From an uncultured Acidobacteriia bacterium (GTDB lineage Bacteria > Acidobacteriota > Terriglobia > Bryobacterales > Bryobacteraceae), in assembly GCA_903881085.1 (NCBI GenBank), contig CAIRSA010000558.1, positions 1 through 64,000 of the forward strand: a DNA stretch of 64,000 bases, written 5' to 3'. Made by a program: the position numbers and the translations under genes. The notes below the pieces were generated by a model, which was given only the letters and a program-made list of their open reading frames with translations, did not search any database and was not told where the DNA came from. Each line of letters begins with the position of its first letter. Positions within the stretch are counted from its first letter, which is position 1. Below are positions 18,601-57,821 of this stretch, in pieces.

Positions 18601-18616
18601 TTTACTTGTGAATTGA
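15611..18616 (+). CDS. J-like, zinc-ribbon, FN3 multidomain protein
   Basis: A 1001-residue protein starting at a GTG that overlaps the stop of the vWA-Hsp70 gene. Residues ~5-85 resemble a J domain (NFYILLELDP...) but lack the HPD tripeptide needed to trigger Hsp70 ATPase. Residues ~175-240 resemble a second J-like or helical module. Residues ~308-355 contain three zinc-ribbon knuckles (CGYC, CPHCG, CPRC, CSRCG). Then a TPR-like helical stretch (~360-500) and at least three fibronectin type III-like beta domains (~500-880) with repeated 'LSW/LTW' strands. The start and domain order suggest a scaffold joining the Hsp70 pair to the GTPases. No signal peptide, so FN3 domains act in the cytosol. 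Confidence 0.75.
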   Translation: MSGRPNFYILLELDPGIDDLQAIERRLVEKQRRWSQDSTQGNPADQRKASVNLKLIDDIRTTLSNPESRREEARIARVELGRLTEARGKELDGKLSLLLATKGKCSIEAIRLLVKQLEGAFTEQQVVERLRQAGISIADETSRPKQHTKERLDPAVDSNIRRNIEHLGLKSLYDLLKMTPRSSPQSLWDCANEMNQQILAVGKTDPDSSARKELYGFCLAFFRDEREKEKYDNTLALESLKQLDGDIDFLGAKDKFLDLAQQAALIERARERGVPAADAREYLAEHAAKRKWNMQPAAQATPQPQARLCGYCYKLSPSGADGHCPHCGEALVVPCPRCSAPTPTQDPSCSRCGCHTGDAPVVTALFREAEVLGKSHDYEGAIKRLDRTLVYWPDWPAALAQRKLWEGHSQIRDACIIEARGLANSGKMLAASEALVRLEVEHGWQDQELRQRVSAAIQKARQAAERGDVHRRASKEDEALEEYSVALSMCGDLEAARHALSLIPPRTPEGLKVAAMQRSFSLNWQEVKTRRGVEYKVLRKVGGVPSSDADGEVLACLPGTRFDDLTASTGVAWHYAVYAVRDGVASSDAARSGPHLLTAEVEAIKVHSVDGQVMLSWQPPAGARRVEVWRSSGTPPTSPGDGRRVTVSGNSAVDTNLVNGSTYLYQLFVVFDHPGLAGGEILTQGTTVSAVPAAPPTPVVDMQVRVAGKLAILTWTPVRGASVQIRYSTDPLPLVQGTVFSPGEVSRYGVLATNTDTASAQIALTSPGTVYFVPFSVTDAIAVAGKVVSLSNVDNVTGCSARSTDRHIILQWTWPAGIEEALIRYDFNKAPAEPQGGDAPRLRVTRAEYERAGYWELKVDTPQSHHFTIFARGAGMEAYSSGVGVVASMGKAVSVNYRVVVRRNLYPRRIREAWVELTSDECRSLPGLELRHQRGQPPVFQTDGQSLVNLPSLDLKDGRARIDIPQAGWDPDTYIKLFLTDPSQASQVRLLPSRKENLLVN

Positions 18617-18634
18617 GCGAAGCCGATCCATTAT

Positions 18635-19819
18635 ATGTTTGAATCATTGAAAGCCACGCTGAGAAAGGAAACCTGCCCATTCTGTTTTGAACGGTTTGGA
18701 CTGAAAGACGCTCCTTTCCGCTGCAAGAACAAGCGCTGCAAAGTACAGACTCGGGACGAAATATTATTCAAGGCCTGGGATGACGGCCGCCCCACGGGCA
18801 GGGTGATCCCGCCGCGATGGGGGCTCTCGTCCGGAATGGCCTGCCCGGAATGCCGTGAAGAGGCCCGAAAGCGCCTCTGCCCAGCCTGCCACATGGACTT
18901 GCCGCACACAGTCGGCAAGTCTCGCAACTATATCTTTGCCCTGATTGGCGGCAAGGATTCGGGCAAGAGCCACTATCTGGCGGTTTTGATCCATCAAATA
19001 CAAAATGTGCTGGGACCGGATCTCAACATGCTACTGGAGCCGCTGAATGAAGATACCATTAAGCGATACCGCGAGAACTTCCACGATCCTGTTTACAAAT
19101 CGCATATAATAATCCGCACGACGCAATCCGGGTTTACCGACCGAACGGTGCAAGTCCCTATGATTTACAGTCTGACACTCATTGGAAAAAGCGTTAGGGG
19201 AAAACAGAAAATAGTTGCCGCGGTCAACCTGGTATTCTTCGACACGGCGGGCGAAGATCTAAGGGATCAGGACTTGATGGCGACGGTAAATAAGTACATT
19301 TACTGTGCGGATGGCATTATCCTGCTGCTTGATCCGCTGCAATTGCCCTGGGTTCGGGATCAGTTCAGCGGCCACACCACGCTTCCCGCGTCTACGGATG
19401 AAACGTCCGAGATCGTGACGCGGACCAGCAACCTGATTGTGGCGGGACGGCACCTAAAGGCCAACGTCAAAATTCCGACTCCGCTGGCGGTTGCCTTCTC
19501 AAAAAGTGATGCCGTCGCTACTCTGATCGACACGCAGATGCAGATGAATGCCTCGCCTCGGCACGCCGGTGGTTTGGACGTCGCCGATCAGAGTGCCGTA
19601 AGCGACGAGATGCAATCGTTGCTAGCGCGCTGGAACGGAGGCTACCTTGTGCAGCAGGTGTCGACTCGCTATGAGAAGTTTTCGTTTTTCGGGCTGACCG
19701 CCTTAGGTTGCAATCCGCACGTTGACGGAAAAATCCCGCGAGTAATTCCCCATAGAGTAGAGGACCCATTCTTGTGGCTTTTATACCAGCAAGGTCTTAT
19801 CAAGGGCGCGAAATTATGA
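18635..19819 (+). CDS. Zinc-ribbon GTPase (second of the operon)
   Basis: A 394-residue soluble protein. The N-terminal ~90 residues hold three cysteine pairs (CPFC 14-17, CKNKRC 30-35, CPEC 70-73, CPAC 82-85). The GTPase domain has P-loop GGKDSGKS at 105-112, G3-like DTAGED from Asp203 and a G4-like SKSD at 289-292. It resembles the membrane GTPase at 9719-11113 but lacks the transmembrane part. The stop codon overlaps the likely start of the GAP1-like gene (ATGA), which indicates a partner relation. Confidence 0.82.
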   Translation: MFESLKATLRKETCPFCFERFGLKDAPFRCKNKRCKVQTRDEILFKAWDDGRPTGRVIPPRWGLSSGMACPECREEARKRLCPACHMDLPHTVGKSRNYIFALIGGKDSGKSHYLAVLIHQIQNVLGPDLNMLLEPLNEDTIKRYRENFHDPVYKSHIIIRTTQSGFTDRTVQVPMIYSLTLIGKSVRGKQKIVAAVNLVFFDTAGEDLRDQDLMATVNKYIYCADGIILLLDPLQLPWVRDQFSGHTTLPASTDETSEIVTRTSNLIVAGRHLKANVKIPTPLAVAFSKSDAVATLIDTQMQMNASPRHAGGLDVADQSAVSDEMQSLLARWNGGYLVQQVSTRYEKFSFFGLTALGCNPHVDGKIPRVIPHRVEDPFLWLLYQQGLIKGAKL

Positions 19820-22386
19820 GAACGGGGACAATGGCGCTCCAACATTACTACACGTCTTGTCGTCGCGGAATGGGCGGGGGCCCGGGGTTTCAAATGCGGT
19901 CCGTCACGCAGGGGCTGGACTCTTCGGATCGAACCGATGTCGAACGACGGGGATCTTATACGGCGCCCCGCGGTGTCCCCATGGAGCCTTCCGCAGAAGA
20001 GATTCGCGGCGTGTATCCGACGGCGATGCGCTATTACCGACTGGGGTCCGGACGGTGGGCGCTGACTCTCTCCAGCTATGTGGGCAAGGACTACAGCGGG
20101 CGCTGGGGTAATTACTTCGCTCATACCCTCGTTGTCGACGCTGTGCACTTACCCGTTTGGCCCCTCGACTACTACGAGTGGAATGGGTGGAAAAGGTGCC
20201 TACTACCTGACGAAGATTCCGACGTCGCGCCTGAGCCATTACCTTCAGTGCTTCTCGCGGATATTGCTCCCGGACAATCTTTTTCTTTCGAAGAACTGCG
20301 GTTGTTCATCGCCGAAGCGCCGGAGAGAAAAGCCCTTCTAGCAACCATGGTGCGGGCGGTGCTCCACAATACGGCGACATCCCGGGCCGTGATGATTCGC
20401 GACAGTTTTTTGAACGGCTTGTTTTGGACGGCTTGCGTTCATAAGTCTTTTCCGCTTCCTTATGCGAAGCATTTGAGCCTCTCCACGTATCAGTTTGATG
20501 AACGGAACTGCGCGGTGATTAACGCAACCGTGCCTGGCACACAGCTCACCTGCGATGAGGCGCAAGCAAAATACCAATTCTTTGTGTTCGATTTGATCGA
20601 GGGCCGAAACAGCCAGGTCCCAGCCGCTGGTCAAGGCTACGCGGATGCAGTATCCGGCTGGTTGGCAGATGGGCCCGAGCCAATTGAAAGTTTTTTCCGG
20701 TTCACCTCCCTGTTCAGCCACGAACAGGCCGAGCCTAGTTTGGATGCCCTTGCATGGCTTTACCGCTGGAGCATTGACGACCGCGTAACTCTGAATGCGA
20801 AGCAGCGGGCGGCTGTCCTGGCGTTCGCTGAGCGCCATGTTCGCCCTGGGAAACACGGCGAGGTGCTGCCTGGGTTATCGCGAATCGCCTCGACATTGGA
20901 CGGCCCGGAAACAGGCCAAGAGCAGCGTTGCTATCTGCGCTTTCTCGCCCACTGTGCGGCGAACAGCGGCGAGGTTCATCATCGCCACCAGACGATTCAG
21001 TTGTGGCTCGATATCTTTGACCGTTTCATTGCCAACGATCCGGCGCTGGTGGACGACGCTAGACGAGATCTGTTCGAGTCCCTGCGCGGCTTCGCGGCGG
21101 AGATTGCCGCGGGCTTTCTTGGCGCGAGGCATTGGGGACAATTCAAGTCGCACCTCGGTTCGCTGGTTCCAGACGTATTAGAGAGGGTTTTATCCGAGGT
21201 TCAGGCAGCGAACAGGGAACTCGGTCGGTATCCCACTTGGGATCAGCCAGAAGCCCGAACGGTCATTACGGCTTTGCTCCGCTCCGGGGAACCGCTGGAT
21301 CAAGCGGCCGAGCGCATTCTACGGGTACTCGGAGCAGATGAAGACTCTGTAGTGGGACTCTGCCGTTCCGCCATGGAGGGCGAAGACACTCTTGCGGAGA
21401 ACCGAGGTGAGGCGTTCGGACGCGCCCTAGCACGAATCTTGGCAGCAAAACGTCCGGCGTTCGCGCAGTCCGTTCGAAAGCGGCTGGACGATACCGGTGC
21501 GACGGCGGTACTTTATGGGGAGTTGACCTATGCTAGGGTTCAATGGACCGACGCCGAGGCTTCCTACCAGCGCTACGCGCAATCGGTGCTGCGGGAACTA
21601 CCCGGCTACGAACGCAAATACGGCGAACGGATCGCGCGGGAACTGGTTGCCGACTGGCAAAGGGATCGCATCGGACGTCAGGCGAAACGATGGCTGGACG
21701 GGCTGGATATCCCTTCTGCCTCGACCGGGTTTCTTCGCCAGTGCGTGCTTTGGGTGAATGCAGCCCTGCCTCTTGATTCAAGAAATAGTGAATGGACCGA
21801 GTGGGCGTTCCGTCTAGAGGAGCTTGCACGCAAGTACGACGTTCGGCTTATTCCCAACCGCCCAGCGCTGCGAATCCGGATGCGGGACGCGCGTGATGGG
21901 AAGACGGCGCAGATTGAGGGACTCGCTGAAGAACTTAATGGAATCGACGCGACTGGATATCGAGAGTTCCTGGATGTTTTTCTGCAACCTTGTTTAACCA
22001 GCGCCGGTGCTAAGCCAGAGTTGCATGGAAAGGTGTTATGGGCCGTCGTTCGAAAGGAGCATGAAACCGAATTATGGAATTCCTATCGGCGGGTGCTGAG
22101 TGCCGGGCGCTCTTCTGAATTCGCGGCGATAGAAGAAAATGCTCTGATTTTCTGGCTCGGTTCTTCCTCTCGGGAGAATCGTTGGGACGGGTTGAGAAGT
22201 GATGCTATTAACGTTCTGGTCGAACGGCTGGCGCAGCTTAGCTCCAAACGGTTGGCTGAGTTGGAACGAGTAATCCTGGAGCACTCCCTGAACCCGGTGA
22301 TGTGGAAGCAGCTACGAGAGCGTGTGGAGCGTGAACGACCGAGCTGGAACAAGCTGTTAACGCTTTTTACCCGCAAGAAGAGTTGA
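19816..22386 (+). CDS. GTPase-associated protein (GAP1-like)
   Basis: An 856-residue soluble protein. Its N-terminus (LQHYYTSCRRG...GPGFQMRSVTQGL) matches what I remember of GAP1-N ('GTPase-associated protein 1') domains, which start with a YTSC motif and a GxGFQ element; the middle and C-terminal helical regions would be GAP1-M and GAP1-C. No catalytic motif is obvious. The ATG at 19816 overlaps the upstream GTPase stop (ATGA); a longer frame from 19774 lacks an advantage. GAP1 proteins are linked with DO-GTPases in predicted conflict systems, where they may regulate the GTPase or act as the effector scaffold. It is the last gene of the operon. Confidence 0.7.
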   Translation: MRTGTMALQHYYTSCRRGMGGGPGFQMRSVTQGLDSSDRTDVERRGSYTAPRGVPMEPSAEEIRGVYPTAMRYYRLGSGRWALTLSSYVGKDYSGRWGNYFAHTLVVDAVHLPVWPLDYYEWNGWKRCLLPDEDSDVAPEPLPSVLLADIAPGQSFSFEELRLFIAEAPERKALLATMVRAVLHNTATSRAVMIRDSFLNGLFWTACVHKSFPLPYAKHLSLSTYQFDERNCAVINATVPGTQLTCDEAQAKYQFFVFDLIEGRNSQVPAAGQGYADAVSGWLADGPEPIESFFRFTSLFSHEQAEPSLDALAWLYRWSIDDRVTLNAKQRAAVLAFAERHVRPGKHGEVLPGLSRIASTLDGPETGQEQRCYLRFLAHCAANSGEVHHRHQTIQLWLDIFDRFIANDPALVDDARRDLFESLRGFAAEIAAGFLGARHWGQFKSHLGSLVPDVLERVLSEVQAANRELGRYPTWDQPEARTVITALLRSGEPLDQAAERILRVLGADEDSVVGLCRSAMEGEDTLAENRGEAFGRALARILAAKRPAFAQSVRKRLDDTGATAVLYGELTYARVQWTDAEASYQRYAQSVLRELPGYERKYGERIARELVADWQRDRIGRQAKRWLDGLDIPSASTGFLRQCVLWVNAALPLDSRNSEWTEWAFRLEELARKYDVRLIPNRPALRIRMRDARDGKTAQIEGLAEELNGIDATGYREFLDVFLQPCLTSAGAKPELHGKVLWAVVRKEHETELWNSYRRVLSAGRSSEFAAIEENALIFWLGSSSRENRWDGLRSDAINVLVERLAQLSSKRLAELERVILEHSLNPVMWKQLRERVERERPSWNKLLTLFTRKKS

Positions 22387-42255: not shown

Positions 42256-42600
42256 ATGATCCAGATCACGCCGCAGATGCGCGTGTTAGTCGCGGTAGAA
42301 GCCATTGATGGACGAAAAGGAATCGACTCGCTGGCCGCTCTCTGCCGCGATAAGCTTCAGGCCGACCCTTTTTCGGGCTGGCTGTTCATCTTCCGCACGC
42401 GCAGCGCGCATGCGATCAAGATCCTATGCTACGACGGCCAGGGGTTTTGGCTGGCGCAAAAGCGGTTATCCGAAGGCCGGTTCCGGTGGTGGCCACAGGG
42501 GGACGTATCACGCACGCTCGAAGCACATCAGGCACTGTTGCTACTTGCGGCTGGCAACCCGGAAACAGCGGCAGCGCCGGTGTGGAGAAAAGTAAGTTAA
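42256..42600 (+). CDS. tnpB: IS66 accessory protein TnpB
   Basis: A 114-residue protein with the IS66 Orf2 signature: GIDSLAALCRDKLQADPFSGWLFIFRTR followed by a KILCYDGQGFWLAQKRLS core. Complete; needed for transposition in IS66 elements by an unclear mechanism. Confidence 0.88.
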   Translation: MIQITPQMRVLVAVEAIDGRKGIDSLAALCRDKLQADPFSGWLFIFRTRSAHAIKILCYDGQGFWLAQKRLSEGRFRWWPQGDVSRTLEAHQALLLLAAGNPETAAAPVWRKVS

Positions 42601-42645
42601 AACAAAATGCTTGCGTTCTGGTTTTAGCTGTGGCATGCTGCTGTC

Positions 42646-43533
42646 ATGCCCGAACAGTGGCGCTATCGCGGACAAAGCATCGACAGCGAACAAGTGGCGG
42701 TTCTGAAAGAGTTCATCGCCGCGCACCCGGAAAGCAGCCGCTGGAAGTTATCGCGGCAGTTATGCGAAGCATTGGGCTGGAAGCAGCCCAATGGCGCGTT
42801 GCGCGACGTAGTGTGCCGCGGCTTACTGTTGATGTTGGAACGTGCCGGCCAGATCGAGTTGCCGCCGGTGCGCCGCATTATTCGCGGGCAGCGCCGCACT
42901 GCGCGCCCACGTCCGGCAGCGGTGTTGATCGACACCACGCCAATCCAGGTATGCTTCACTGAACTGGGGCCGGTGCAGTTGGAGCAGGTGCGGCGCACTG
43001 CCGATGAGGATCTGTTCAACAGCCTGATGGAGCACCATCATTATCTGGGCTACGAACAGCCAGTGGGCGAGCACTTGAAGTATCTGGCGTGGGCGCAAGG
43101 CCGGCCAGTGGCGTGTTTGGCGTGGTCCAGCGCACCGCGGCATCTTGGAGCGCGCGACCGGTTCATCGGCTGGACCAAGGAAGCGCGCAAGCAGAACATT
43201 CATCTGATCGCCTACAACACGCGGTTTCTGATTCTGCCATGGGTTCAAGTGCCGCATCTGGCTTCGCATATTCTGGGGCGGATGGCGCGGACGCTGTCGG
43301 CCGATTGGCAGCGGATCTATGCCCATCCGATACATCTGGTGGAAACGTTTGTGGATCCTACGCGATTCCAAGGGACCTGTTACCGCGCGGCGAACTGGAC
43401 CCTTGTGGGCAACACCACCGGGCGCGGTAAAGACGATCAAACACATCGCCAGAACCGGACGATCAAACAGGTGCTGGCCTTGCCGTTAACGCCCCAGTTC
43501 CGCCGTCTGCTGAGGAAGCTCCCGGATGAATAA
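42646..43533 (+). CDS. DruA-like (DUF4338) protein, IS66 passenger
   Basis: A 295-residue protein of the DUF4338 family, which includes DruA of the Druantia anti-phage system. Recognisable elements are the N-terminal WKLSRQLCEALGW helix-turn, DLFNSLMEHHHYLGY, YLAWAQGRPVACLAWSSAP, NTRFLILPWV and the catalytic-looking C-terminal ETFVDPTRFQGTCYRAANW. It sits 45 bp after tnpB and 5 bp before tnpC, so it travels with the element. No druB-E partners are nearby, so an anti-phage role cannot be claimed; it may help transposition or immunity of the IS. Confidence 0.75.
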   Translation: MPEQWRYRGQSIDSEQVAVLKEFIAAHPESSRWKLSRQLCEALGWKQPNGALRDVVCRGLLLMLERAGQIELPPVRRIIRGQRRTARPRPAAVLIDTTPIQVCFTELGPVQLEQVRRTADEDLFNSLMEHHHYLGYEQPVGEHLKYLAWAQGRPVACLAWSSAPRHLGARDRFIGWTKEARKQNIHLIAYNTRFLILPWVQVPHLASHILGRMARTLSADWQRIYAHPIHLVETFVDPTRFQGTCYRAANWTLVGNTTGRGKDDQTHRQNRTIKQVLALPLTPQFRRLLRKLPDE

Positions 43534-43538
43534 CGCCC

Positions 43539-45116
43539 ATGCCACAACGAATCGAAGCGCTCGATGTCAGCATTGAGGAGTTGGAGCAACTGGTGGACTG
43601 CGCCGGACAAGGGCCGTTGCCCACGGAAGGGCAGAGGAAGCTCAAAGCAGCGGTGGCCACGCTGGGCGTCATGGCCGCGATGTTGGCCGACAAGGACACA
43701 ACGATCCGGAAACTGCGCGAACTGCTGACGCCTACAAGAACCACCGAGAAGACCAAAAAGGTATTGGGCTCCGATGCCCCCGGGCAGGAGCCGCAGCCTA
43801 AGGCGGCAAGACGCAAGAAGGGACACGGCCGCAACGGCCCGGGCGCTTATACGGGCGCACGGAAAGTGCGCGTGGCCCACCCGGCAATGAAACGGGCCGA
43901 TCATTGCCCGGGGTGCAGGAAGGGAAAGTTGTACCCGCTCAACGAGCCAAAGAGGCTGATCCGGCTCATTGGCCAGGCGCCGGTTGAAGCCACTGTTTAC
44001 GAGCTGGATGCGTTGCGCTGCAACTTGTGCGGAGAGGTCTTCACCGCGCCGCCGCCGGCAGGAGTGGGTACGGAAAAGTACGACGCCAGCGCCGTGGGCA
44101 TGATCGCGTTATTGAAGTACGGCAGCGGCATTCCGTTTTACCGGCTGCAAAAACTGGAGAGCGATCTGGGGATTCCGTTGGCTCCGGCGACGCAATGGCA
44201 ACTGGTTGCGGAAGCGGCGGCGACGCTGGCGCCGGTAGAGGAAGAGTTGCTGCGGCAAGCGGCGCAAGGCAGTCTGGTGCACAACGACGACACCAGCATG
44301 CGGATTCTCAGTTATGAGCGGGAAGCCGGCGATGCGCGCACCGGGATGTTTACTTCCGGAGTTGTCAGTATAGTCGCCGGGCGCCGAGTCGCGGCTTTCT
44401 TCACCGGCAGCAAGCATGCGGGAGAAAATCTCGCCGATGTGTTGCGGCGGCGCGCCAAGGAACTGGCGCCGCCCATTCAGATGTGCGACGCGCTATCGCG
44501 CAACGTTCCGGCGGCGTTTGCGGTGATGCTCTCTAATTGCATGGCGCATGCCCGGCGCCACTTCGTGGACGTGGTGAACAGTTTTCCAGCCGAGTGCCGG
44601 TATGTGCTCGAAACGCTGCGCGGGGTGTTCCACTTCGATGCCCTGGCCAAGGAGCAAGCGTTGTCCCCGCAGGCGCGGTTGATCTTCCACCAACACAACA
44701 GCCAACCGCTGATGGAAGGTTTGCATGTGTGGTGTAAGCAGCAGTTCGAAGAGCGTAAAGTGGAGCCGAATTCGGGTTTGGGCAAAGCCATCCAATATCT
44801 GCTGAACCATTGGCCGGAGTTGACGCTGTTTCTTCGTGAGCCCGGTGCGCCGTTGGACAACAATGTTTGCGAACGGGCGCTGAAGAAGGCGATTCTACAC
44901 CGGAAAAACGCCTTGTTTTACCGAACCATCAACGGAGCCAGCGTTGGTGACCTGTTCATGACTTTGATTCACACCGCCGAACTCGGCGGCGTGAATCCGT
45001 TCGACTATCTCACGGAGCTACTGCGCCATCCCAGTGAGTTGGCGAAATCGCCCGCACGTTGGATGCCCTGGAATTACCGGGAAAACCTTGACCAGAAGGC
45101 CGATCTCGCCGCCTGA
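43539..45116 (+). CDS. tnpC: IS66 transposase TnpC (DDE)
   Basis: A 525-residue transposase. An N-terminal leucine-zipper-like region (DKDTTIRKLRELL), a zinc-binding site (CPGCRKGKLYPLN and a later CNLCGE), then the DDE core: HNDDTSMRIL (first Asp), QMCDALSRN (second) and PLDNNVCERALKKA (Glu). All parts are intact, so the element may be active. Confidence 0.93.
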   Translation: MPQRIEALDVSIEELEQLVDCAGQGPLPTEGQRKLKAAVATLGVMAAMLADKDTTIRKLRELLTPTRTTEKTKKVLGSDAPGQEPQPKAARRKKGHGRNGPGAYTGARKVRVAHPAMKRADHCPGCRKGKLYPLNEPKRLIRLIGQAPVEATVYELDALRCNLCGEVFTAPPPAGVGTEKYDASAVGMIALLKYGSGIPFYRLQKLESDLGIPLAPATQWQLVAEAAATLAPVEEELLRQAAQGSLVHNDDTSMRILSYEREAGDARTGMFTSGVVSIVAGRRVAAFFTGSKHAGENLADVLRRRAKELAPPIQMCDALSRNVPAAFAVMLSNCMAHARRHFVDVVNSFPAECRYVLETLRGVFHFDALAKEQALSPQARLIFHQHNSQPLMEGLHVWCKQQFEERKVEPNSGLGKAIQYLLNHWPELTLFLREPGAPLDNNVCERALKKAILHRKNALFYRTINGASVGDLFMTLIHTAELGGVNPFDYLTELLRHPSELAKSPARWMPWNYRENLDQKADLAA

Positions 45117-45554
45117 ACGAGAAATTTACGCGGTTACGCAGGCTTGCCGCAAGCTCACCACCGACCTGGAGCCCCGTGTTGAATGGCCCTCACGCTTTAA
45201 CGATTTCTTAAGACATTTCCGGCACAATGGCTCTATCACACCAGAACAACCATAAGAGGGCGATGTGCCGCCAACTTCGGAATGCCTCCAGTTTGCCAAC
45301 GGATCTTTCGTTCGGCCGGTAACGGCAAAGCAGAAAGAAGAAAGCGTTGCTAAGGAGCTTCGCCCCTCGCGCCCGCAAGAGGTGTCCCCATCTTTCGCTT
45401 TGCTGCAAGACGGCGCGGGCGCGCCGCACTGCGTGTGGGTGATCCCCCTCCTCTTGCAGTTGCTACCTCCAACGCTCGCCGCGTCAGGCAGGGTTGCATA
45501 TGCCTGCAACCCATTTCCATTAACAATGTCGCACACACAGAGGAGCTAAACACT
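45117..45554. other. Leader of the methyltransferase-helicase gene
   Basis: No separate gene supported. The last 20 bases hold the ribosome site AGAGGAG before ATG 45555. A frame open from 45435 extends the next gene upstream by 40 codons without protein character. Confidence 0.4.
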
Positions 45555-48500
45555 ATGCCGAGTGAATTCAAAAATGGCCGATGGCAGCGCAAGCCGATAC
45601 CCGACTATACGAATCAGCTTGACCTTTTTGCCAATATCGGTTCAGATTCGCCGGAGCAAAGTGTGGCTGACCAAACCGTCACCAAGGAGGTTGTAGCAGA
45701 TGCACAAAAAGAATCCATTGGGACAGAAGATCCTAAATCACTGGATCAAGCACCGGCCCCAGATGGTGAAGGAACTGCTCAAGAACAACCAGTTACAGCA
45801 GACACTTCACGAGACCGAGGAGCGGACCGCGGACCTCCTATACGAACTGTTGTCAGTTCAGAAGATGGAATATCACAAGGCCTGGGAGATAGCGACGCGG
45901 GAATGGGGGTTCCTGCCGACCGAGGACCACCCGCAGCAACCGTCGTCCACGACATCGAGCCCGTCCCCGAAACAATCCCCTCCCGCGACTTCCGAATAAA
46001 CGAAGCACACCGCATCGGCCAAGGCAGTCTGCGCGAAAAGGCCGGCGACAACATCGCCGCCATCCGCACGCTGAAACAGATCGAAGCAGACAACCGCGAA
46101 GCCACAGAAACAGAAAGAGCCCAACTCGCACGCTACACAGGTTGGGGAGCCCTGGCCAATGCATTCCGCCCTTATCCGCCGACTGAACTGGATCAGGTTG
46201 CGAACGACCTGAAGGAACTTCTCACCGATGAAGAATACGCATCCGCCCGCGCCTCCACGCCCAATGCTCACTTCACCTCGCCCATGGTCATCGCCGCCAT
46301 GTGGGACGGCATGCAGCGGCTTGGTCTTCAGCCTGGCGCGCAGATTCTCGAACCCTCAATGGGCGTGGGGCATTTCTTCGGATTGATGCCGCAGGAACTC
46401 GCTCAAGACAGCCGCAGGACCGGCGTGGAACTGGATTCACTTACCGCCCGCATCGCGCAGAAGTTGTACCCGGACTCCACGATCTTTGCCAAGGGTTTCG
46501 AGGACACGCCGCTGCCGGACAACTACTTCGATGCAGCAATCGGAAACATCCCATTCGGGGCTTACGCGGTTTACGATCCGGCCTACAAGCCCGTGCTCAC
46601 GCGTGCGATTCACGATTACTTTACCGCCAAGTCGCTCGACAAGGTGCGCCCCGGCGGCGTCGCAGCACTGATTACCAGCCGCTACACCATGGACAAGCAG
46701 GACTCCACGATTCGCCGTTACCTCGCCGATCGCGCAAACCTGGTTGGCGCAATCCGTCTGCCGAACACCGCATTCAAAGCCAATGCGGGAACCGAGGTCA
46801 CCACCGACATTCTATTCCTGCAAAAGCGCACGCCTGGCACATTACCCGCCGGTGACCCGTGGTGCGACCTCGCGCCTCACGAAACAGCCGATGAAGGGCA
46901 GTTCTTTATCAACGAATACTTCGCGCGAAACCCGCACATGATGCTGGGACACATGGCGCACGAAGGGACCATGTACCGGGCCAATGATCCAACGCTTGTT
47001 GGCGAATTGACGCCCGAGATTCTGGCGCGGGCTGTTGCCACGTTACCCGCTGGCATCATGACAAACAGACAACGAACCGGCATCGAGCATTCAACCGAGC
47101 CCGCCGATGTCTCTGGCGTCAAGGAAGGCGCCTACGCGCTGCGCGACGGAAATCTATTCATCCGCAACGGCGCCGGATTCGAGCCTGCAAATCTCCCGGC
47201 AACCGCGACCTCTCGCGTCCGCGGCATGATGGCCGTGCGAGACGCGGTACGCGCTGTGTTTCAGACACAGCTTGACGACGCACCAGAGGAGCGCATTTCC
47301 GAGGCGCGAAAACGCCTCAACGAAATATATGACGACTATGTCCGGCGGCATGGACCTTTGTCATCGCGGGAAAACATCAAGGCCTTCGCTGACGATCCTG
47401 ACCATCCACTGCTTCTGTCGCTTGAGAACTACGACCCGGAGGCCAAGCGCGCCACCAAAACCGCCATATTCGAGCGCCGGACGCTGGAACGGTACAAGCC
47501 GGTTGAGAATGTTGAGACCGCCGCCGAGGCGCTCACCGTTTCGCTCAATGAGACCGGAGAAATCGATTGGCCGCGCATGGAGCAGTTGACTGGCCGCACA
47601 GCCCGTCAGATGCAACGCGAGCTTGGCAGTCTCGCCTATCGCAATCCGGAGGGCGGCTCCTGGGAGACCACCGACCGGTACCTAAGCGGCGACGTGCGCG
47701 CCAAGCTCCGCGCGGCGCAATCGGCCTGCGAACTAGATCCTAGGTATCAGCGCAACATTGAAGCATTGAAAGCCGTGCAGCCAGCGGACCTGGAACCCGG
47801 TGAGATCGAAGCGCGGTTAGGATCGTCGTGGATTCCCACCACCGACATCCGCAACTTTATTGCGCAGACTCTTGAAATTCCGATTCACGCCGTTCGTGTG
47901 GCTCACGCGGGCGCTATCGCCACCTGGGCGGTTGAAGTTGATAGTGGCTCGAAATGGGATGTGAGCAACACTACGACGCACGGCACGGAGCGCTTCAGGG
48001 CATCCGATCTAATCGACCAGGCTTTGAACGGACGCACTCCTACTGCCTATGACGAGATGGAGGACGGCTCGCGGGTCATCAACCAGCGGGAGACTATCGC
48101 TGCCCGCGAGAAGCAACAACAGTTGAAAGACCGCTTCCGCGAATGGGTTTGGAAAGACCCTGAGCGCGCAGCGAGGCTGGCCCGTGAATATAACGACCGT
48201 TTTAACAATCTGCGCCTCCGACAGTTTGACGGCGCGCACCTGACGTTCCCCGGCATGAACCGCGAGCACCTGCGAACCGGTGACCTCGACAAACATCAGA
48301 AGGATGCGGTCTGGCGAATTCTACAGGGCAGCAGCACGTTGCTCGCGCACTGTGTCGGCGCGGGTAAGAGCTTCGAGATGGCGGCAGCGGCGATGGAGCT
48401 GCGCCGCATGGGGCTTGCCAAAAAGCCTATGATCATTGTCCCCAATCACCTTGTAGAGCAAATGGGCAGCGAATTCCTGCGGCTCTATCCCAACGCCAAG

Positions 48501-50831
48501 CTGTTCGTTGCCGGGCGGGATCATTTTGCCGCTGGCAACCGTCAGAAGGCGATGGCCCGCATTGCCAGCGGCAACTATGACGCAGTGATTGTCTCTCACC
48601 GTTCTTTCGAATTCTTGCCTGTGTCCGATGCCTTGTTCGGGCGATTCATGCAGGAGGAGATGGACAAGCTGGAGCAGGCTATCCTCGAAGCCAAGGCCGA
48701 GAAAGGCGACAACCGCCGCATCGTTAAAGAACTGGAAAAGGCCAAGAAGCGCTTCGCCACCAAGCTTAAGCAACGCGCCGACCGCGAGAGTAAGGACAAC
48801 GCCATCAACTTCGAGGAACTTGGCGTTGACCAATTGTTCGTGGACGAGGCCGACCTTTATAAAAACCTGTTCTACACCACAAAAATGAACCGCATCGCCG
48901 GCTTGCCGAACACCGATAGCAACCGCGCCTTCGACATGTACATGAAGACGCGCTATATCCGGCAGATCAATGAAGGCCGCGGCGTGGTGTTCGCCACGGG
49001 GACACCGATATCGAACACCATGGCCGAGTTGTACACTATGCTTCGTTATCTCGGGCCCGACCTGTTGCGTGAGCGTGGAGTGGAACATTTCGACGCATGG
49101 GCCGCGAACTTCGCCGAAGCCGTGACCTCACTGGAACTCGCACCCGACGGCTCCGGCTACCGCATGCATACGCGATTTGCGAAGTTCATCAACCTGCCGG
49201 AATTGCTTTCCATGTTCCGCACTGTGGCCGATGTGCAGACCGCCGACATGTTGAAGTTGCCACGTCCCACCATTGAAGGCGGCAGGCCGCATGGCGTTGC
49301 CGCTCCCGGCTCCCCAGACCTGAAGGCTTTCGTTGAAACTTTGGTGAAGCGGTCGGAGAATCTTCGCAGTCAGCGCGTTGATCCGTCCGTGGACAACATG
49401 CTGAAGATCACGGGCGACGGGCGTAAGGCCGCCCTCGACATGCGCCTTGTCAATCCCTTCGCTGACCCGCATGCCGAGTCCAAACTCTCCCGCGCCGTTT
49501 CGCGCATCCACAGCAACTGGGATGAAACCCGGGACGCACGTTCGACTCAGCTCGTATTCTGTGACCTTTCGACACCAAGCACCGACAAGTTCAACGTGTA
49601 TCATGAGGTGCGTGATCGTTTATTGGAGCGCGGCATTCCGGACAATGAAATCGCATTCATCCATGACGCCGATACGGACGCGGCTAAGAAGCTGCTGTTC
49701 GATTCGGTGAACGCCGGCCGGGTGCGCGTGCTGATTGGATCGACCGAGAAGATGGGCGCCGGGACCAACGTCCAACGCAAGCTCGTCGCGCTGCATCACC
49801 TCGATGCGCCGTGGAGGCCACGCGACATCGAGCAGCGCGAAGGGCGGATACTTCGGCAGGGAAACCTCAACCCCCAGGTGCGCATCTTCCGCTACGTTAC
49901 CGAAGGCTCGTTTGACGCATATATGTGGCAGACGCTGGAGACCAAGGCGCGGTTCATTCAGCAGGTCATGAACGGAACCACATCGGTGCGTCAGGCCGAA
50001 GACATCGAAGGGGGCGCGTTAACATATGCCGAGATCAAGGCCATCGCTTCGGGCAATCCCGCCGTCATGGAGAAGGTCAAGATCGATACTGAAATCCGCA
50101 AACTCGACCAGCTTCGCTCAGCGCACGTCAACCAGCAATATTCCATCAGGACGCAGCTTTCCGGCCTCCCCGGTCAGATACAGCACGCCAAAGATCGCTT
50201 GGCAAAGCTTACGACCGATATTGCCACGAGAGATGCTACTGCCGATGAGGAATTCTCAATGCGAGTCGGCAATAAGGTCTTCTCCGGCAAGGGCGCTCGC
50301 GAGGAAGCCGCCAAGGCGCTGACGCACGTTATCCTCTCATGGCGTGATGACTTGACCTTGCAGCCACGCGCGGCCTTCCGCGGCTTTGAGATTCTCAGCC
50401 GCGGCAAAGGGAGATTGCGCTTCGGCGATAGCGCCGAAGACGACCGCATGCCTGAGCTATTCATTCGCGGCGCAGCCACCTACTCCGCGAATCTGAACCC
50501 CGAGAACCCCATTGGTACGGTGCAGAGCATCGAGCACGCCTTGCGTGCACTGGAGCGGCACGCGGAGAATGACCGCGAGCAGATAGAGCGGCTTGAGAAA
50601 GCGCTCGCTGATTATCAGGCGCAAGCCAACAAGCCCTATGAGCACGAAGCACGTCTCAAAGAGTTGCTGGTCAGGCAGGCCCAGCTCAACGCCGCGCTCG
50701 ACCTCGACAAGGGCGAGCAGCAGGCCGCGATTGAGGAACCAAGCGACACCCCGGAAGTGCGCCCATCCGCACCGGAAAGCTTCGTTGCTCGTGTTGTCGC
50801 TGAACGCTCGTCCGCCGCGCTTCGGCACTGA
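45555..50831 (+). CDS. Giant DNA methyltransferase-helicase (DarB-like)
   Basis: A 1758-residue protein. Residues ~195-420 hold an N6-adenine methyltransferase: TGWGALANAF, motif I ILEPSMGVGHFFG near 265 and a catalytic GNIPFGAY near 330 (the NPPF-like motif). Residues ~920-1450 are an SF2/SNF2-like helicase: GAGKS near 935, VDEAD near 1096, ATGTPISNT near 1148, and QREGRILRQGN near 1427. Such proteins occur on plasmids, ICEs and in phage as anti-restriction or DNA-modifying factors (P1 DarB type). The first ~145 residues are low-complexity and overlap another gene (45700-45999). Start ATG 45555 follows AGAGGAG. With ArdC and a MobF relaxase nearby it belongs to a mobilizable element. Confidence 0.85.
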   Translation: MPSEFKNGRWQRKPIPDYTNQLDLFANIGSDSPEQSVADQTVTKEVVADAQKESIGTEDPKSLDQAPAPDGEGTAQEQPVTADTSRDRGADRGPPIRTVVSSEDGISQGLGDSDAGMGVPADRGPPAATVVHDIEPVPETIPSRDFRINEAHRIGQGSLREKAGDNIAAIRTLKQIEADNREATETERAQLARYTGWGALANAFRPYPPTELDQVANDLKELLTDEEYASARASTPNAHFTSPMVIAAMWDGMQRLGLQPGAQILEPSMGVGHFFGLMPQELAQDSRRTGVELDSLTARIAQKLYPDSTIFAKGFEDTPLPDNYFDAAIGNIPFGAYAVYDPAYKPVLTRAIHDYFTAKSLDKVRPGGVAALITSRYTMDKQDSTIRRYLADRANLVGAIRLPNTAFKANAGTEVTTDILFLQKRTPGTLPAGDPWCDLAPHETADEGQFFINEYFARNPHMMLGHMAHEGTMYRANDPTLVGELTPEILARAVATLPAGIMTNRQRTGIEHSTEPADVSGVKEGAYALRDGNLFIRNGAGFEPANLPATATSRVRGMMAVRDAVRAVFQTQLDDAPEERISEARKRLNEIYDDYVRRHGPLSSRENIKAFADDPDHPLLLSLENYDPEAKRATKTAIFERRTLERYKPVENVETAAEALTVSLNETGEIDWPRMEQLTGRTARQMQRELGSLAYRNPEGGSWETTDRYLSGDVRAKLRAAQSACELDPRYQRNIEALKAVQPADLEPGEIEARLGSSWIPTTDIRNFIAQTLEIPIHAVRVAHAGAIATWAVEVDSGSKWDVSNTTTHGTERFRASDLIDQALNGRTPTAYDEMEDGSRVINQRETIAAREKQQQLKDRFREWVWKDPERAARLAREYNDRFNNLRLRQFDGAHLTFPGMNREHLRTGDLDKHQKDAVWRILQGSSTLLAHCVGAGKSFEMAAAAMELRRMGLAKKPMIIVPNHLVEQMGSEFLRLYPNAKLFVAGRDHFAAGNRQKAMARIASGNYDAVIVSHRSFEFLPVSDALFGRFMQEEMDKLEQAILEAKAEKGDNRRIVKELEKAKKRFATKLKQRADRESKDNAINFEELGVDQLFVDEADLYKNLFYTTKMNRIAGLPNTDSNRAFDMYMKTRYIRQINEGRGVVFATGTPISNTMAELYTMLRYLGPDLLRERGVEHFDAWAANFAEAVTSLELAPDGSGYRMHTRFAKFINLPELLSMFRTVADVQTADMLKLPRPTIEGGRPHGVAAPGSPDLKAFVETLVKRSENLRSQRVDPSVDNMLKITGDGRKAALDMRLVNPFADPHAESKLSRAVSRIHSNWDETRDARSTQLVFCDLSTPSTDKFNVYHEVRDRLLERGIPDNEIAFIHDADTDAAKKLLFDSVNAGRVRVLIGSTEKMGAGTNVQRKLVALHHLDAPWRPRDIEQREGRILRQGNLNPQVRIFRYVTEGSFDAYMWQTLETKARFIQQVMNGTTSVRQAEDIEGGALTYAEIKAIASGNPAVMEKVKIDTEIRKLDQLRSAHVNQQYSIRTQLSGLPGQIQHAKDRLAKLTTDIATRDATADEEFSMRVGNKVFSGKGAREEAAKALTHVILSWRDDLTLQPRAAFRGFEILSRGKGRLRFGDSAEDDRMPELFIRGAATYSANLNPENPIGTVQSIEHALRALERHAENDREQIERLEKALADYQAQANKPYEHEARLKELLVRQAQLNAALDLDKGEQQAAIEEPSDTPEVRPSAPESFVARVVAERSSAALRH
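45700..45999 (+). CDS. Nested 99-aa gene in another frame
   Basis: ATG 45700 follows a strong AAGGAGG (45684-45690) at 9-nt spacing and reads 99 residues in the +1 frame relative to the large gene that spans it. The product looks like a real folded helical protein (IKHRPQMVKELLKNNQLQ, TEERTADLLYELL, YHKAWEIATREWGFLP) with a Pro/Ser tail, and similar 'H..HRP.MV..L...W.FLP' proteins come to mind from phage and plasmid genomes. Where the two overlap, the large protein is low-complexity and disordered. So either the two genes really overlap, or the large gene starts further down and its 5' part is fortuitous. Confidence 0.6.
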   Translation: MHKKNPLGQKILNHWIKHRPQMVKELLKNNQLQQTLHETEERTADLLYELLSVQKMEYHKAWEIATREWGFLPTEDHPQQPSSTTSSPSPKQSPPATSE

Positions 50832-52619: not shown

Positions 52620-53024
52620 GCGGGCGCCACCCCGCACAATTCATCTTGCATGATCTTTAGGTTTCCATTCGGGGCAGTTGGCAAGATCTTCGGGCTTGGC
52701 CGTAATTTGGTTGTGGTCGCTAAGAGTCATTGAGAATTGGGCCGAAAGCTCATGATATTACGTTGGGGAGGCGGGTGTCGAAGACACGCTATACAGAGGC
52801 CCTGGCCCAGCGAATTTGATGCCCGTTTGTTCCCACTCTGCCTGCGGTTTCTCATAACCTGCCGCGATCCCTGGCCGTACCGCGAATCCCGTCAACGTCC
52901 TGCCCGCTCCATTCGCTTCGCTCCCGTGTTGTCCGTTCCCCTCCGGTGACGGGCTCCGCTATTGGTCCGGCCTTTCCATGTTCGCGTCATGAGAAACCCC
53001 GACGCAGAAACAGGAGAACAGACC
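52620..53024. other. Divergent intergenic region
   Basis: It separates the regulator from the ArdC-like gene and should contain their promoters. A GGAGAA (53012-53017) serves the next gene. No gene seen. Confidence 0.35.
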
Positions 53025-53927
53025 ATGAAGAATATCGAACGGCAAGACGTTTACACTCGCATCACCGGACAAATTATCCAATCACTCGAACAAGGCATTC
53101 GCCCCTGGGTCAAACCCTGGAATATTGATAACACCACCGGAAGAATTGTTCGGCCCATGCGCCATAATGGCCAAGCCTACTCTGGCATCAACGTGCTGAT
53201 GCTCTGGAGTGCGGCAGTCGAACAAGGCTTCACCTGCCCCGTCTGGATGACGTTCCAGCAGGCCATCGAAATGAAGGCGAACGTCCGCAAAGGACAAAAG
53301 GGTTCGCTCGTCGTATATGCGAACAAACTGACCCGCACCGAGGACGACGGTGAAGGAAACGAAGTTGAGCGTGAGATCCCCTTTATGAAGGGCTATACCG
53401 TTTTCAACGCGGAGCAGATCGAAGGTTTGCCTGCGACGTACTACACGAAGCCCGAGCCGATATTGACAGGCCCTTCACGCATCGACCATGCCGAAGCGTT
53501 CTTCGCCAACACCAAAGCGGACATCCGCATCCGGGGAGGACGTGCCTACTACGCGATTGATGATGACTTCATCGCCATGCCGCCGATTGAGAGCTTCCGC
53601 GACGCCGAGTCATTCTATTCCACCTTAGCTCATGAGTCTGTTCATTGGACACGGAATTGCAAACGACTAGATCGAGATTTCGGACGCAAGGCCTGGGGCG
53701 ACCAGGGCTACGCCCGCGAGGAACTCGTGGCTGAACTCGGTGCTGCTTTCCTTTGTGCGGACCTTGAACTTACGCCTGAAGTGCGTGATGATCATGCGGC
53801 CTACTTGGCCTCATGGCTTACCGTTCTCAAGAATGACAATCGCGCGATTTTCCAAGCCGCATCACACGCTCAGCGCGCCGTTGAATTCCTCCACGGACTC
53901 CAGAAGCCCAAAGCCGACGCTGCCTGA
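53025..53927 (+). CDS. ardC: ArdC-like antirestriction / zincin protein
   Basis: A 300-residue protein. The N-terminal domain (~1-130) matches the ArdC N-terminus: YTRITGQIIQSLEQGIRPWVKPW, YSGINVLMLW and VRKGQKGSLVVYANK. The C-terminal domain is a zincin-like metallopeptidase with HESVH near residue 203 and a downstream acidic REELVAELGAAFL. ArdC proteins shield incoming plasmid DNA from restriction. It lies between the helicase-methyltransferase and relaxase genes of the mobile element. Confidence 0.85.
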   Translation: MKNIERQDVYTRITGQIIQSLEQGIRPWVKPWNIDNTTGRIVRPMRHNGQAYSGINVLMLWSAAVEQGFTCPVWMTFQQAIEMKANVRKGQKGSLVVYANKLTRTEDDGEGNEVEREIPFMKGYTVFNAEQIEGLPATYYTKPEPILTGPSRIDHAEAFFANTKADIRIRGGRAYYAIDDDFIAMPPIESFRDAESFYSTLAHESVHWTRNCKRLDRDFGRKAWGDQGYAREELVAELGAAFLCADLELTPEVRDDHAAYLASWLTVLKNDNRAIFQAASHAQRAVEFLHGLQKPKADAA

Positions 53928-54408: not shown

Positions 54409-54800
54409 TCGTCATCCTCCTTGTTTAGGGTTAACTCAATCAGATCAATATGTGAGGCCTCCTCAGGTTTCAGCTCATCCTCGGCAACTGTCCCTTCCTG
54501 CACGAATCTCGCACGGTGCCGCCGCAACTTTTCGTATAACGGCAGCAGCCTCCTGCCCTCGACCAGCACAGTATCCAAGCCAAAAATCAACTTGAGCTGG
54601 TCGGCGGGCAGGTACTCAATTTTGACGAGATAGCTATAGCTCAGCGCGCACCGTGAGCCATTGCTGAATCGCACATCGAGCATGAGATCGTCCTGGGTCT
54701 GCTTGCGTCCCGTGGCATAGGCCTCGCGCACCGTGTCTTCCTGTTCAGAATTTCCTGGCGCTGCGCTACCTCGCCGTGGTCCATCATAAGCTCCGGCCAT
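54405..54800 (-). CDS. Uncharacterised 131-aa protein of the relaxase operon
   Basis: ATG 54800 lies 17 bp inside the 3' end of the relaxase gene. A soluble acidic protein with a beta-rich middle (LDVRFSNGSRCALSYSYLVKIEYL) and a helical C-terminus. No motif recognised; tight coupling on both sides indicates a function with the relaxase. Confidence 0.6.
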   Translation of the reverse strand: MAGAYDGPRRGSAAPGNSEQEDTVREAYATGRKQTQDDLMLDVRFSNGSRCALSYSYLVKIEYLPADQLKLIFGLDTVLVEGRRLLPLYEKLRRHRARFVQEGTVAEDELKPEEASHIDLIELTLNKEDDE

Positions 54801-57594
54801 AGTCCATCTCCTTTCTGAATCTTGGTGGCACGATATCCCGGCCCCGTTCTCTGAGGACCTGATAGTTCTCGCGAAGACGCTGCACACGCAACATCTCGTG
54901 CAATTTACTGAAGCGTTTAGCATGCGTTTTGTGGGTATGTCCCTTGAGCAGCTCCGTGGCCGACAGTCGCTCGCTGCTTGCCCGCACTGCATCGATCATG
55001 GCTTGCTTGTCGTCAGTGTAGAGCTTCACCGATTCGCGGCCGCGCGAAACGGAAACATAGACCTGCGCGCGATTGACCGCCGCGAACGAGTCCTGCCCCA
55101 TCGCCACAAAAACCTTGTCCACCGTTTTTCCCTGAGAAGCATGGCTCGTACTGGTGTACCCATAGTTGAGGTGGCCGTAATCCTTGGACACCACGAATCC
55201 GTTCGTGAGCCGTATGTCACCGTCATCGGTGAATCCGGCCACCCTATACACCGCGCCATTGTTGAGGCGGGCTTTGGCCTGCTTGCCCGTCCGAGTTGTT
55301 TCCTTGGTGTAGCCGTTTTGGGTGATGCGCACGAGGTCACCTGCGGCCAGCTCTAACGCTGCCTGCCGGTAAACCTGGAACCGCTCCGCATCCGCGAGCG
55401 TGAGTGTCGCCTGCGTTCCACTGGCACGCTTCACTCTCACGACGTCCCCTTCGTGCCCGAGAACGTCCACTTTTTCGCCGCGTTTGATGCCTTTCACATT
55501 TTGATGGAACTGCACTACCAGACCGGGCTGATACAGTGAAGCATCCTTGCGTTGAGCCGTTGTCCAGTTTGCATTTTCGAGCGCAGTAAACTCGCATTCC
55601 GATGCAGCCAATCGACCCTGTTCTTTCAGCTCGGCCCGAATGAATCCAGTTATCTGGTCGCCTTCCGCATGTGTCGGCGCCACTACAATTGCACTTTTCG
55701 CCGAGCCATCGCTCTTCCGCTCCGATACAGCCTCTAGATAATCGTGCGCCATTTGCCTGTAAAGCTCATCGCCACTCATTTCGACAATGGCCCCCATGCT
55801 GTCGAGTGCGGCAATTCCTAGCGCGAGCTTGGTCGTACGCTTGCCATCTTTCACAGCAGGCGCGTCCCCCTGACTAATGGCTTGGACCGCATCGCGGTAG
55901 GCGGCGTTCGTTTGACGCCGTACCTCTTTCAACTCGGCGAACGATAGACCGGATTCTTCTTCGATGATGCGAAGCGCATCGCCACGTGCGACCGACGCAT
56001 GCTGATTTTTATCGCCCGCTAGTATCACCCGGCAGTTCTGTTCTTTCGCAAGTGCAAAGAGCCGTAGCGTGTCTTTCACTGAAAGAAGCCCGGCCTCGTC
56101 AATCCATAGCACCTGGCCGCTGACTCTCTCGCGCATTCTATCGTCAGAAAGTAGCCTCTCAACCGTGTCGGCATTGGCGAAGCCCTCTTCGCGCAGCACA
56201 CCCCGCGAAGCTTCCGCCGAAGGCGCGAAGGTGAACACTTCGCGGCCACTCCCTTGAATCGCAGCAATGGTTGCCTGCATCATGCGCGTCTTACCCGTAC
56301 CAGCACCGCCGCGCAGGCCGATGACCCGATCGCGAGAGAGGAGAATCTTCTCCGCTGCCGCGTGTTGCTCGCGGCTGAGTCCTACATCGAGGGCCAGGTT
56401 TGGACCTGCCAGCTTTTTGCAGGTGCCCCTGCCCTCACGCACAAAATCGACCATTTCCATTTCCTGGCGGTATACCTGTTTCGTTGTTGCGTAACTCACT
56501 CCGCCGTTCTCTTTCAAGATCACGTCGCCGCGTTGCGATTCGTGGTGAACGTCTTCCACTGAAACCGTGCCAACGCCGTGCATCAATGCCTCAGCCAGGA
56601 GTTGCTTTTCGCGGACGACCGATTCACGCTCGAAGCATTGCTCCGTCGCGTGATCGAGCGCTTGTATGGCGGTGACCGCATCGCCTTTCTCGTACCCTTG
56701 CGCGGCGCGTAGCGACTGCCGATCCTCTGCCGTCAACCGCTCTTGCCACTGCGCGCGAAGGTCACCGATGCTGAGGTCCGCATTCTTCGCCTTACGCGTT
56801 TGACGACCCAGCTCACTCTTGCGCTTGGGATCGGTGATTTGACGGCGCGCGGCCTCCTCTTCAATGACCTGAGACCGGCGTGAGAACTTTTCAGTTAGAC
56901 TGTCCTCGATGCCTCTCAAGCAGAAGCTCTTGCCGTCGCGTTCGACCGCGTAACCAAGCTCTGATAACTTCATGCCCAATCGTGCATGAAACGCAGCTTG
57001 GTAATAGGTGGCATCCCGCTTGATGGCGCTGAACTCGCCGGCCTTCCAGCAGCCCTCATCGGCGTCATAACTTAGGTTCATTGCAACGGCATGTATGTGG
57101 AGTTGTGGATCTGGAACTCCGTCAGCAAGAGGCCGGGTTGTACGGTGTACGAACTCCGCCCAAACCATGTTGCCGGTCACGCGATCATGGGACTGTCCAC
57201 GCTTCCTTACGCGCACGGCCATTGACTGCTCAACCTCGGCCATCGTCTCGCGCACGGACGTCTGAAAGGCTTCCAGGATACGTGCGTCGCCGCCCAGTTC
57301 GAATGCGAGCGTAACTGACTTCGGAGCATCCCAGGTGAAGTCATACGTAACTCTTCGATTTGCTTTCATCCTGGCGCTAAGTTGCTCGCCGGTGAAGGGG
57401 TGCTGGTTGTCGCATAACCGGTCGAAGCAATCCCGGTCCACCGGTCCTTCAAGCCCCAGCGCCGCAGCCCCCAGACCATGCCACAGACCGGTGATCTGCT
57501 GGCCGTCCTTCATGTAGTAATTTGCCTGCGCCAGCTCCTGCTTGAAGTAGTCCTTGGCTGCCTGGCTGTTCGAGGTGTGGTTGATGAATAACAT
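54784..57594 (-). CDS. MobF-family conjugative relaxase (TrwC/TraI-like)
   Basis: A 936-residue relaxase-helicase. The N-terminus (MLFINHTSNSQAAKDYF, ANYYM) holds the catalytic tyrosines, the DPQLHIHAV segment near residue 165 gives the metal-binding histidines, and the RecD2-like helicase has RGGAGTGKTR near 426 and IDEAGLL near 495, ending with SF1 motifs (YTSTSHASQG). It would nick oriT and lead the strand during transfer. I chose ATG 57594, which matches other MobF starts; an ATG at 57633 adds 13 residues. No type IV secretion or coupling protein gene is in the window. Confidence 0.92.
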   Translation of the reverse strand: MLFINHTSNSQAAKDYFKQELAQANYYMKDGQQITGLWHGLGAAALGLEGPVDRDCFDRLCDNQHPFTGEQLSARMKANRRVTYDFTWDAPKSVTLAFELGGDARILEAFQTSVRETMAEVEQSMAVRVRKRGQSHDRVTGNMVWAEFVHRTTRPLADGVPDPQLHIHAVAMNLSYDADEGCWKAGEFSAIKRDATYYQAAFHARLGMKLSELGYAVERDGKSFCLRGIEDSLTEKFSRRSQVIEEEAARRQITDPKRKSELGRQTRKAKNADLSIGDLRAQWQERLTAEDRQSLRAAQGYEKGDAVTAIQALDHATEQCFERESVVREKQLLAEALMHGVGTVSVEDVHHESQRGDVILKENGGVSYATTKQVYRQEMEMVDFVREGRGTCKKLAGPNLALDVGLSREQHAAAEKILLSRDRVIGLRGGAGTGKTRMMQATIAAIQGSGREVFTFAPSAEASRGVLREEGFANADTVERLLSDDRMRERVSGQVLWIDEAGLLSVKDTLRLFALAKEQNCRVILAGDKNQHASVARGDALRIIEEESGLSFAELKEVRRQTNAAYRDAVQAISQGDAPAVKDGKRTTKLALGIAALDSMGAIVEMSGDELYRQMAHDYLEAVSERKSDGSAKSAIVVAPTHAEGDQITGFIRAELKEQGRLAASECEFTALENANWTTAQRKDASLYQPGLVVQFHQNVKGIKRGEKVDVLGHEGDVVRVKRASGTQATLTLADAERFQVYRQAALELAAGDLVRITQNGYTKETTRTGKQAKARLNNGAVYRVAGFTDDGDIRLTNGFVVSKDYGHLNYGYTSTSHASQGKTVDKVFVAMGQDSFAAVNRAQVYVSVSRGRESVKLYTDDKQAMIDAVRASSERLSATELLKGHTHKTHAKRFSKLHEMLRVQRLRENYQVLRERGRDIVPPRFRKEMDYGRSL

Positions 57595-57821
57595 CGGTGA
57601 TCTCGCGTCAGTTAGTGAAAGGGTTAATTGCATCTTACATTAAGACTGGTTAAGAAATCGTTAAAAAAGGATTTACGGGTAGACATCTCTCCTAAGCGCT
57701 GCTTGAGGTTCGATTCAGAAAAGTCACCAGGGTATTTCGCGGAGACCTTCCAGCATTGTAGGGAACAATTGAATGATCGCCGTTGGAGAGGCTGACGTGC
57801 GATTTTGGACGCTGAGAGTAG
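57595..57821. other. Divergent region upstream of the relaxase
   Basis: Should hold the relaxase promoter and possibly the origin of transfer. No obvious inverted repeat of the kind used by MobF relaxases was seen. Confidence 0.35.

Follow-up and report, generated by a model that had tools for sequence, protein, structure and literature searches.

Wholly nested same-strand gene pairs in bacteria in which both frames are under selection are, to our knowledge, rare, and the well-studied ones are lineage-restricted. The locus analysed here combines relatives of a polyvalent dyad protein and of TnpV. The words TnpV, overlap and clamp are absent from the paper on polyvalent dyads (PMC5512222), and for TnpV of Tn4451 a role in excision has only been postulated, on the basis of similarity to lambda Xis (PMC3158075). 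A third relevant element is the peptide QLxLF, the consensus by which bacterial proteins bind the sliding clamp and on which transposases of mobile elements rely as well (PMC4549789). Our literature search found no report of TnpV or polyvalent proteins as overlapping genes; because subscription journals were mostly outside its scope, this absence is no proof of novelty.

The locus lies in a 64,000-nucleotide stretch (hereafter the window) of contig C558 of an 11.9-Mb draft genome, for which the nearest named homologues include Bryobacterales (Acidobacteriota) MAGs. A first-pass annotation had proposed that a 99-aa frame with a strong AAGGAGG site lies within the 5′ end of a gene for a 1758-aa methyltransferase-helicase, the overlapped part of which is low-complexity. 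The coordinates, ATG starts and ribosome-binding sites of both frames were all verified (Table 1): the two genes share 300 bp in two frames, and the shared stretch encodes a Gly/Pro/Asp/Ser-rich, low-complexity segment in the big frame. The nested ORF starts 70 bases 3′ of the NQLDLF motif of the big protein and stops 17 bases 5′ of the GQGS motif of its LPD36 domain, and thus fills the linker between them.

Table 1. Coordinates of the overlapping gene pair and of its sequence motifs in the window.
Feature	Position	Strand	Basis or remark
Big gene, DarB-like DNA methylase-helicase, 1758 aa (LPD36, N6-adenine MTase, SNF2-type helicase)	45555..50831	+	ATG start
Shine-Dalgarno GAGGAG of big gene	45540..45545	+	9 bases 5′ of ATG 45555 (sequence)
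NQLDLF, predicted beta sliding-clamp-binding motif (QLxLF), N-terminus of big protein, 5′ of nested gene	45612..45629	+	QLxLF-type in 62/73 homologous N-termini; consensus PMC4549789
Shine-Dalgarno AAGGAGG of nested gene, within big coding sequence	45684..45690	+	8-base spacing to ATG 45700
Nested TnpV-like gene, 99 aa, ATG to TAA, +1 frame relative to big gene	45700..45999	+	homologues nested identically; stop-avoidance and codon-position tests
GQGS, GXGU motif of LPD36 domain, big protein	46017..46028	+	motif position; LPD36 definition PMC5512222
IGNIPFG, NPPF-like catalytic motif of adenine MTase	46539..46559	+	sequence; N6_Mtase match 312-426
AHCVGAGKSFE, Walker A of SNF2-type helicase	48345..48377	+	sequence; ResIII match

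The big protein matches phrog_10089 (DarB-like antirestriction) with E=0 and the profiles N6_Mtase, ResIII, Helicase_C and SNF2-rel, and its gene has more than 2,100 plasmid homologues. It carries what defines a DarB-like LPD36-MTase-SNF2 dyad, namely the GXGU motif, an adenine methylase and an SNF2-type helicase in the right order, and judged by this domain content it is an LPD36-methylase-SWI2/SNF2 dyad of the polyvalent proteins (PMC5512222), with protection from type I restriction remaining without an assay. A start at GTG 45435, which would give 1798 aa, was rejected in favor of ATG 45555 because homologues align from that ATG and a Shine-Dalgarno sequence precedes it. Encoded nearby are an ArdC-type antirestriction protein (ArdcN and MPTase-PolyVal; 52962-53927) and a TrwC-family relaxase-helicase on the opposite strand (54784-57633), which places the big gene within a conjugative element or what is left of one. 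Directly 5′ of the big gene lies an IS66-type transposon (TnpB-like, DDE transposase; 42256-45116), whose IS66 genes flank one for a DruA-domain protein (42646-43533). Farther off, at 9719-22386, a double-GTPase is clustered with a zinc-ribbon protein, a GAP1-domain protein and two Hsp70-like proteins, of which one has a VWA domain, and this cluster looks like a GTPase-based conflict system.

An overprinted pair should have both ORFs intact and homologous in relatives, together with selection on each frame within the overlap. The first of these expectations is met: near homologues of the big gene in GTDB genomes, plasmids and phages, 89/94 TnpV-like matches lie in the +1 frame and wholly inside the big ORF, and in all first-round homologues from other genera the small gene sits inside the N-terminus of the big gene. 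An independent search of Acidobacteriota, with the small protein alone as query, recovered 21 loci with an MTase domain; in 20/21 a single ORF holds both the MTase and the stop-free −1 frame of the small gene, whereas L193 has a frameshift. The nested arrangement is found in 63 plasmid records and, unannotated, in 21 phage records. Phages such as PEp14 and Itty13 carry the small gene deep within a giant DarB-like gene that is one continuous ORF, and in the Bacillota, ORFs of ~1,900-2,000 aa or longer on plasmids of Monoglobus, Subdoligranulum and Cohnella hold TnpV genes in their +1 frame. Plasmids of Pseudomonas, Xanthomonas, Burkholderia, Methylovorus and enterobacteria encode a related or analogous 101-aa protein at the same place. 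Plasmid records usually list either a hypothetical protein for the nested gene and a helicase that is made to begin farther 3′, or the helicase alone, and rarely give both together. In Acaryochloris an annotated tnpV lies directly 5′ of the big gene with an 8-bp overlap, an adjacent layout that exists but, on this comparison, is the exception. No nested TnpV-like ORF was found in P1 darB, and a scan of viral contigs for canonical TnpV found none. The comparison of homologues confirmed that the nested overlap is much more general than the window alone could show.

Further copies were seen alongside these. The genome of the window encodes a second DarB-like ORF (L019, G000:C41:1-3268) with an open frame of 2509 aa and a nested TnpV gene above the Pfam cut-off. 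One verrucomicrobial contig (L126) carries two TnpV-like genes (372-621 and 877-1129), one nested and one a separate paralogue upstream. Three viral contigs (L147, L149 and L157) have giant ORFs with nested +1 ORFs of 170-186 aa, stop to stop, before the methylase domain; these are weakly TnpV-like and are possibly more divergent nested genes.

The N-terminal motif of the big protein is conserved along with this layout. A QLxLF-type motif (QLDLF, QLSLF, QLELF, QLSFDF or similar) occurs 5′ of the small gene in 62/73 big proteins, compared with 0.17 expected from shuffled sequences, and 5 of the 11 other N-termini have QLDFL. Homologues without a detectable nested gene retain the motif or a variant of it (QLTLDF in L099 and L101, QLPLDF in L031), so we attribute it to the big protein. 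In four relatives without the nested gene (L008, L012, L110 and L118), a conserved N-terminal LWLPGF stands in place of QLxLF. What would be looked for in the sequence of a clamp client, a QLxLF-type motif in a flexible terminal segment, is present as NQLDLF, and although there are no binding data, we think it probable that this motif binds the beta clamp.

The nested proteins share a conserved core (..YG.mAe.HWre..P.MV.eLe..g.L...L.EAeE.T.deM..L..........qAhdqAWE.vREkYilLPpE) and resemble TnpV. The TnpV profile PF14198 matches 46/53 aligned members of the nested family, with relatives reaching 4.9e-7 and the paralogue on contig C41 of the same genome (L019) giving E=2.9e-13 and 50.2 bits. The copy in the window scores 14.1 bits (E=0.048) against a cut-off of 27 bits and does not qualify; because it falls below the cut-off, we call it TnpV-like and not TnpV. 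Its matches to a PHROG annotated as endolysin and to Pfam ACBP4_C and RICTOR_N were not used, since they fell short of the cut-off or covered just a piece of a very long profile. The proteobacterial nested family is only weakly linked to the rest (hhalign probability 30%, E=5.5e-4); we regard it as only tentatively homologous, and it could be a separate family at the same place.

The function of the small protein remains undecided: it could be a partner of the methylase-helicase, a factor that serves excision or processing independently, or an anti-defence protein, and any choice among these is inferential. That it is an accessory acting with the methylase-helicase is quite possible, and we hold this reading only tentatively. 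It is also possible, if somewhat doubtful, that the nested protein, though genuinely overprinted, is a free TnpV/Xis-like accessory for excision or DNA processing, with no physical link to the methylase-helicase, and that nesting merely keeps the genes together. The excision role postulated for Tn4451 TnpV from its similarity to lambda Xis (PMC3158075) fits this reading, as do stand-alone copies that have no methylase-helicase and whose neighbors are relaxase, mobilisation or transposon-borne resistance genes; such copies indicate that a TnpV-like protein can act without the methylase. The linkage to LPD36-methylase-helicase genes is, however, overwhelming across phyla and element types and hard to explain without a functional association, and many carriers are plasmids, for which no excision is needed. 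An independent anti-defence protein of anti-restriction or anti-CRISPR type that the element brings along is improbable: the antirestriction neighborhood, with ArdC close by, would suit such a protein, and AcrE1 is the top PDB match, but that match is not significant (E=0.18) and there is no functional evidence.

We then considered whether each frame is itself under selection. Each of 78 distinct nested homologues from Acidobacteriota, Verrucomicrobiota, proteobacterial plasmids and phages was recoded with synonymous codons, which gave an expectation of 183 stops in the big frame; the observed number is 0, and only ~10.6 of the 78 genes would be expected to leave the big frame open. In the third frame the same genes have 366 stops versus 259 expected. 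In four stand-alone homologues, from plasmids that lack the big gene, the corresponding frame is interrupted by 3, 2, 3 and 5 stops, and in the stand-alone TnpV of pSGG1 by 3. The 78 cases fall into 25 clusters at 70% identity and are therefore not all independent, but the contrast still holds. Fourfold sites of the small frame have changed less (0.377) than those of the big gene downstream (0.441; Mantel-Haenszel odds ratio 0.74, p=2.2e-5), a result to be expected if the big frame is of consequence too. Stop avoidance and the reduced change at fourfold sites both indicate selection on the big frame within the overlap.

These results bear on the possibility that the small gene is the sole coding frame over 45700-45999, with the big protein starting downstream and the open big frame a by-product of composition. 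The big-frame peptide is indeed low-complexity and fast-evolving (0.56 identity), and several plasmid annotations begin the helicase 3′ of the small gene, as in pGRT1. We nevertheless find this very improbable given the missing stops, which stand-alone homologues do have, the synonymous-site constraint, the conservation of the start and of an in-frame QLxLF motif 5′ of the small gene, the phage and Bacillota cases internal to a single long ORF, and the Methylovorus and B. vietnamiensis G4 records, which annotate the full-length gene. The first-pass annotation had itself suggested overprinting and had named big homologues that start 3′ of the small gene, without an N-terminal extension, as what would refute it. 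Such homologues were looked for and that refutation failed, as close and distant homologues alike start 5′ of the small gene, read through it and conserve QLxLF before it. The synonymous-site comparison in both frames that it proposed has now been run and supports selection on both.

Selection on the small frame is visible in the pattern of substitutions. Across 35 disjoint pairs, substitutions at small-frame codon positions 1/2/3 number 540/418/1099, with the third position highest in 35/35 pairs, as an overprinted gene should show. Protein identity over the overlap is 0.76 in the small frame versus 0.56 in the big frame. Judged by this peak and these identities, strong constraint lies on the small frame, and the big frame is a tolerant linker. 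We infer that the +1 register, by placing the most constrained position of the small gene (2) on the freest position of the big gene (3), is the cheapest way to share the DNA.

The length of the nested ORF is no evidence for a gene, and we rejected it as such. When the big protein is recoded synonymously, a +1 ORF of 99 aa or more arises in 33% of trials (P=0.33), or in 19% with an ATG start, and over the whole big gene ~0.9 ATG-started +1 ORFs of this length are expected versus 1 observed. The strong Shine-Dalgarno sequence of the nested gene in the window, by comparison, is unusual. Sites of at least 5 bases precede 2% of background ATGs, 8/13 Bryobacterales-type nested genes and 13/14 proteobacterial ones; at a threshold of at least 4 bases, the background is 12% and the counts are 11/13 for the Bryobacterales type, 14/14 for the plasmid set and 17/48 for Verrucomicrobia, whose sites are the weaker ones. 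Programmed frameshifting was considered and not favored, the small gene having its own start and stop. It is the comparative evidence, and not length, that puts the nested gene far beyond chance. That coding is confined to the big gene, the small ORF being merely a +1 frame left open by chance in a GC-rich linker, of a length expected in 19-33% of synonymous recodings, is practically ruled out by the conservation of the small protein across phyla, above that of the big frame in each of the 35 pairs, by substitutions that track small-frame codon positions, by stand-alone homologues that are annotated genes and by strong Shine-Dalgarno sites in many lineages.

There are exceptions to this conservation. 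In one homologue (L005, genome G049) a stop interrupts the small frame and the big one stays open, in several (L099, L101, L029 and L031) the nested gene is undetected, and in one (L108) the big frame has one stop with the small gene intact. Because it is broken in the first of these and undetected in several relatives, the nested gene is, on this evidence, dispensable.

Overall, we have little doubt that dual coding is real; it is as well supported as sequence comparison permits, and the production of both proteins is an inference from the selection on their frames. Comparison of homologues shows both frames to be selected, with the position of the small gene and the QLxLF motif conserved, and we consider it highly probable that the locus as a whole is a genuine, ancient and selectively maintained same-strand overlap encoding a linker and a TnpV-like protein. 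The big protein would consist of a clamp-binding peptide, a disordered linker overprinted by tnpV, and then LPD36, methylase and helicase, and the small, helical TnpV-like protein would be translated in the +1 frame, starting at an internal Shine-Dalgarno sequence of its own, so that one transcript may yield both. The QLxLF peptide is inferred to tether the methylase-helicase to the beta clamp of the host, where it could modify conjugated or element DNA during second-strand synthesis; the small protein may be a co-delivered accessory in the establishment or processing of mobile DNA. As to origin, tnpV may once have lain just 5′ of the methylase gene, as in Acaryochloris, and an upstream coding sequence may then have been joined to the methylase by reading through the −1 frame of tnpV, which became the linker. 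A broader proposal, that nesting is the general state of the TnpV-like family in phyla, plasmids, ICEs and phages, that the fusion was read through the −1 frame of tnpV and that the products cooperate on incoming DNA at the replication clamp, we regard as rather unlikely.

The pair spans Acidobacteriota, Verrucomicrobiota, Planctomycetota, Pseudomonadota, Bacillota and tailed phages, and offers an example of a linker written from the alternative frame of another gene. The overlap explains why annotations disagree over the N-terminus of these anti-restriction proteins, recovers hidden phage and plasmid genes, and leads to the testable prediction that the sliding clamp recruits these methylase-helicases.

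Among described systems, the big protein is closest to phage P1 DarB and the DarB-like polyvalent dyad, with which it shares domain order, the GXGU motif, methylase and helicase motifs and the match to phrog_10089; it differs in its N-terminal clamp-like motif and overprinted linker, the N-terminus of P1 darB being short. The small protein resembles TnpV of Tn4451-type elements (PF14198) through the profile matches of its family, and annotated TnpV genes of Bacillota plasmids are nested likewise, although the copy in the window is below the cut-off and TnpV has been described as free-standing, with nesting in a polyvalent ORF unreported in the literature we found. Beta-clamp-binding transposases likewise carry a QLxLF-type motif in an unstructured terminal segment (PMC4549789), whereas here the motif is N-terminal, on a methylase-helicase, and its binding is only predicted. 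Finally, the overlapping genes of E. coli that have been studied by experiment, such as pop and ano (PMC7103648, PMC5960689), also consist of an embedded ORF and yield two proteins from one stretch of DNA, but those are lineage-restricted and antisense, whereas the pair in the window is encoded on the same strand and recurs in several phyla and phages.
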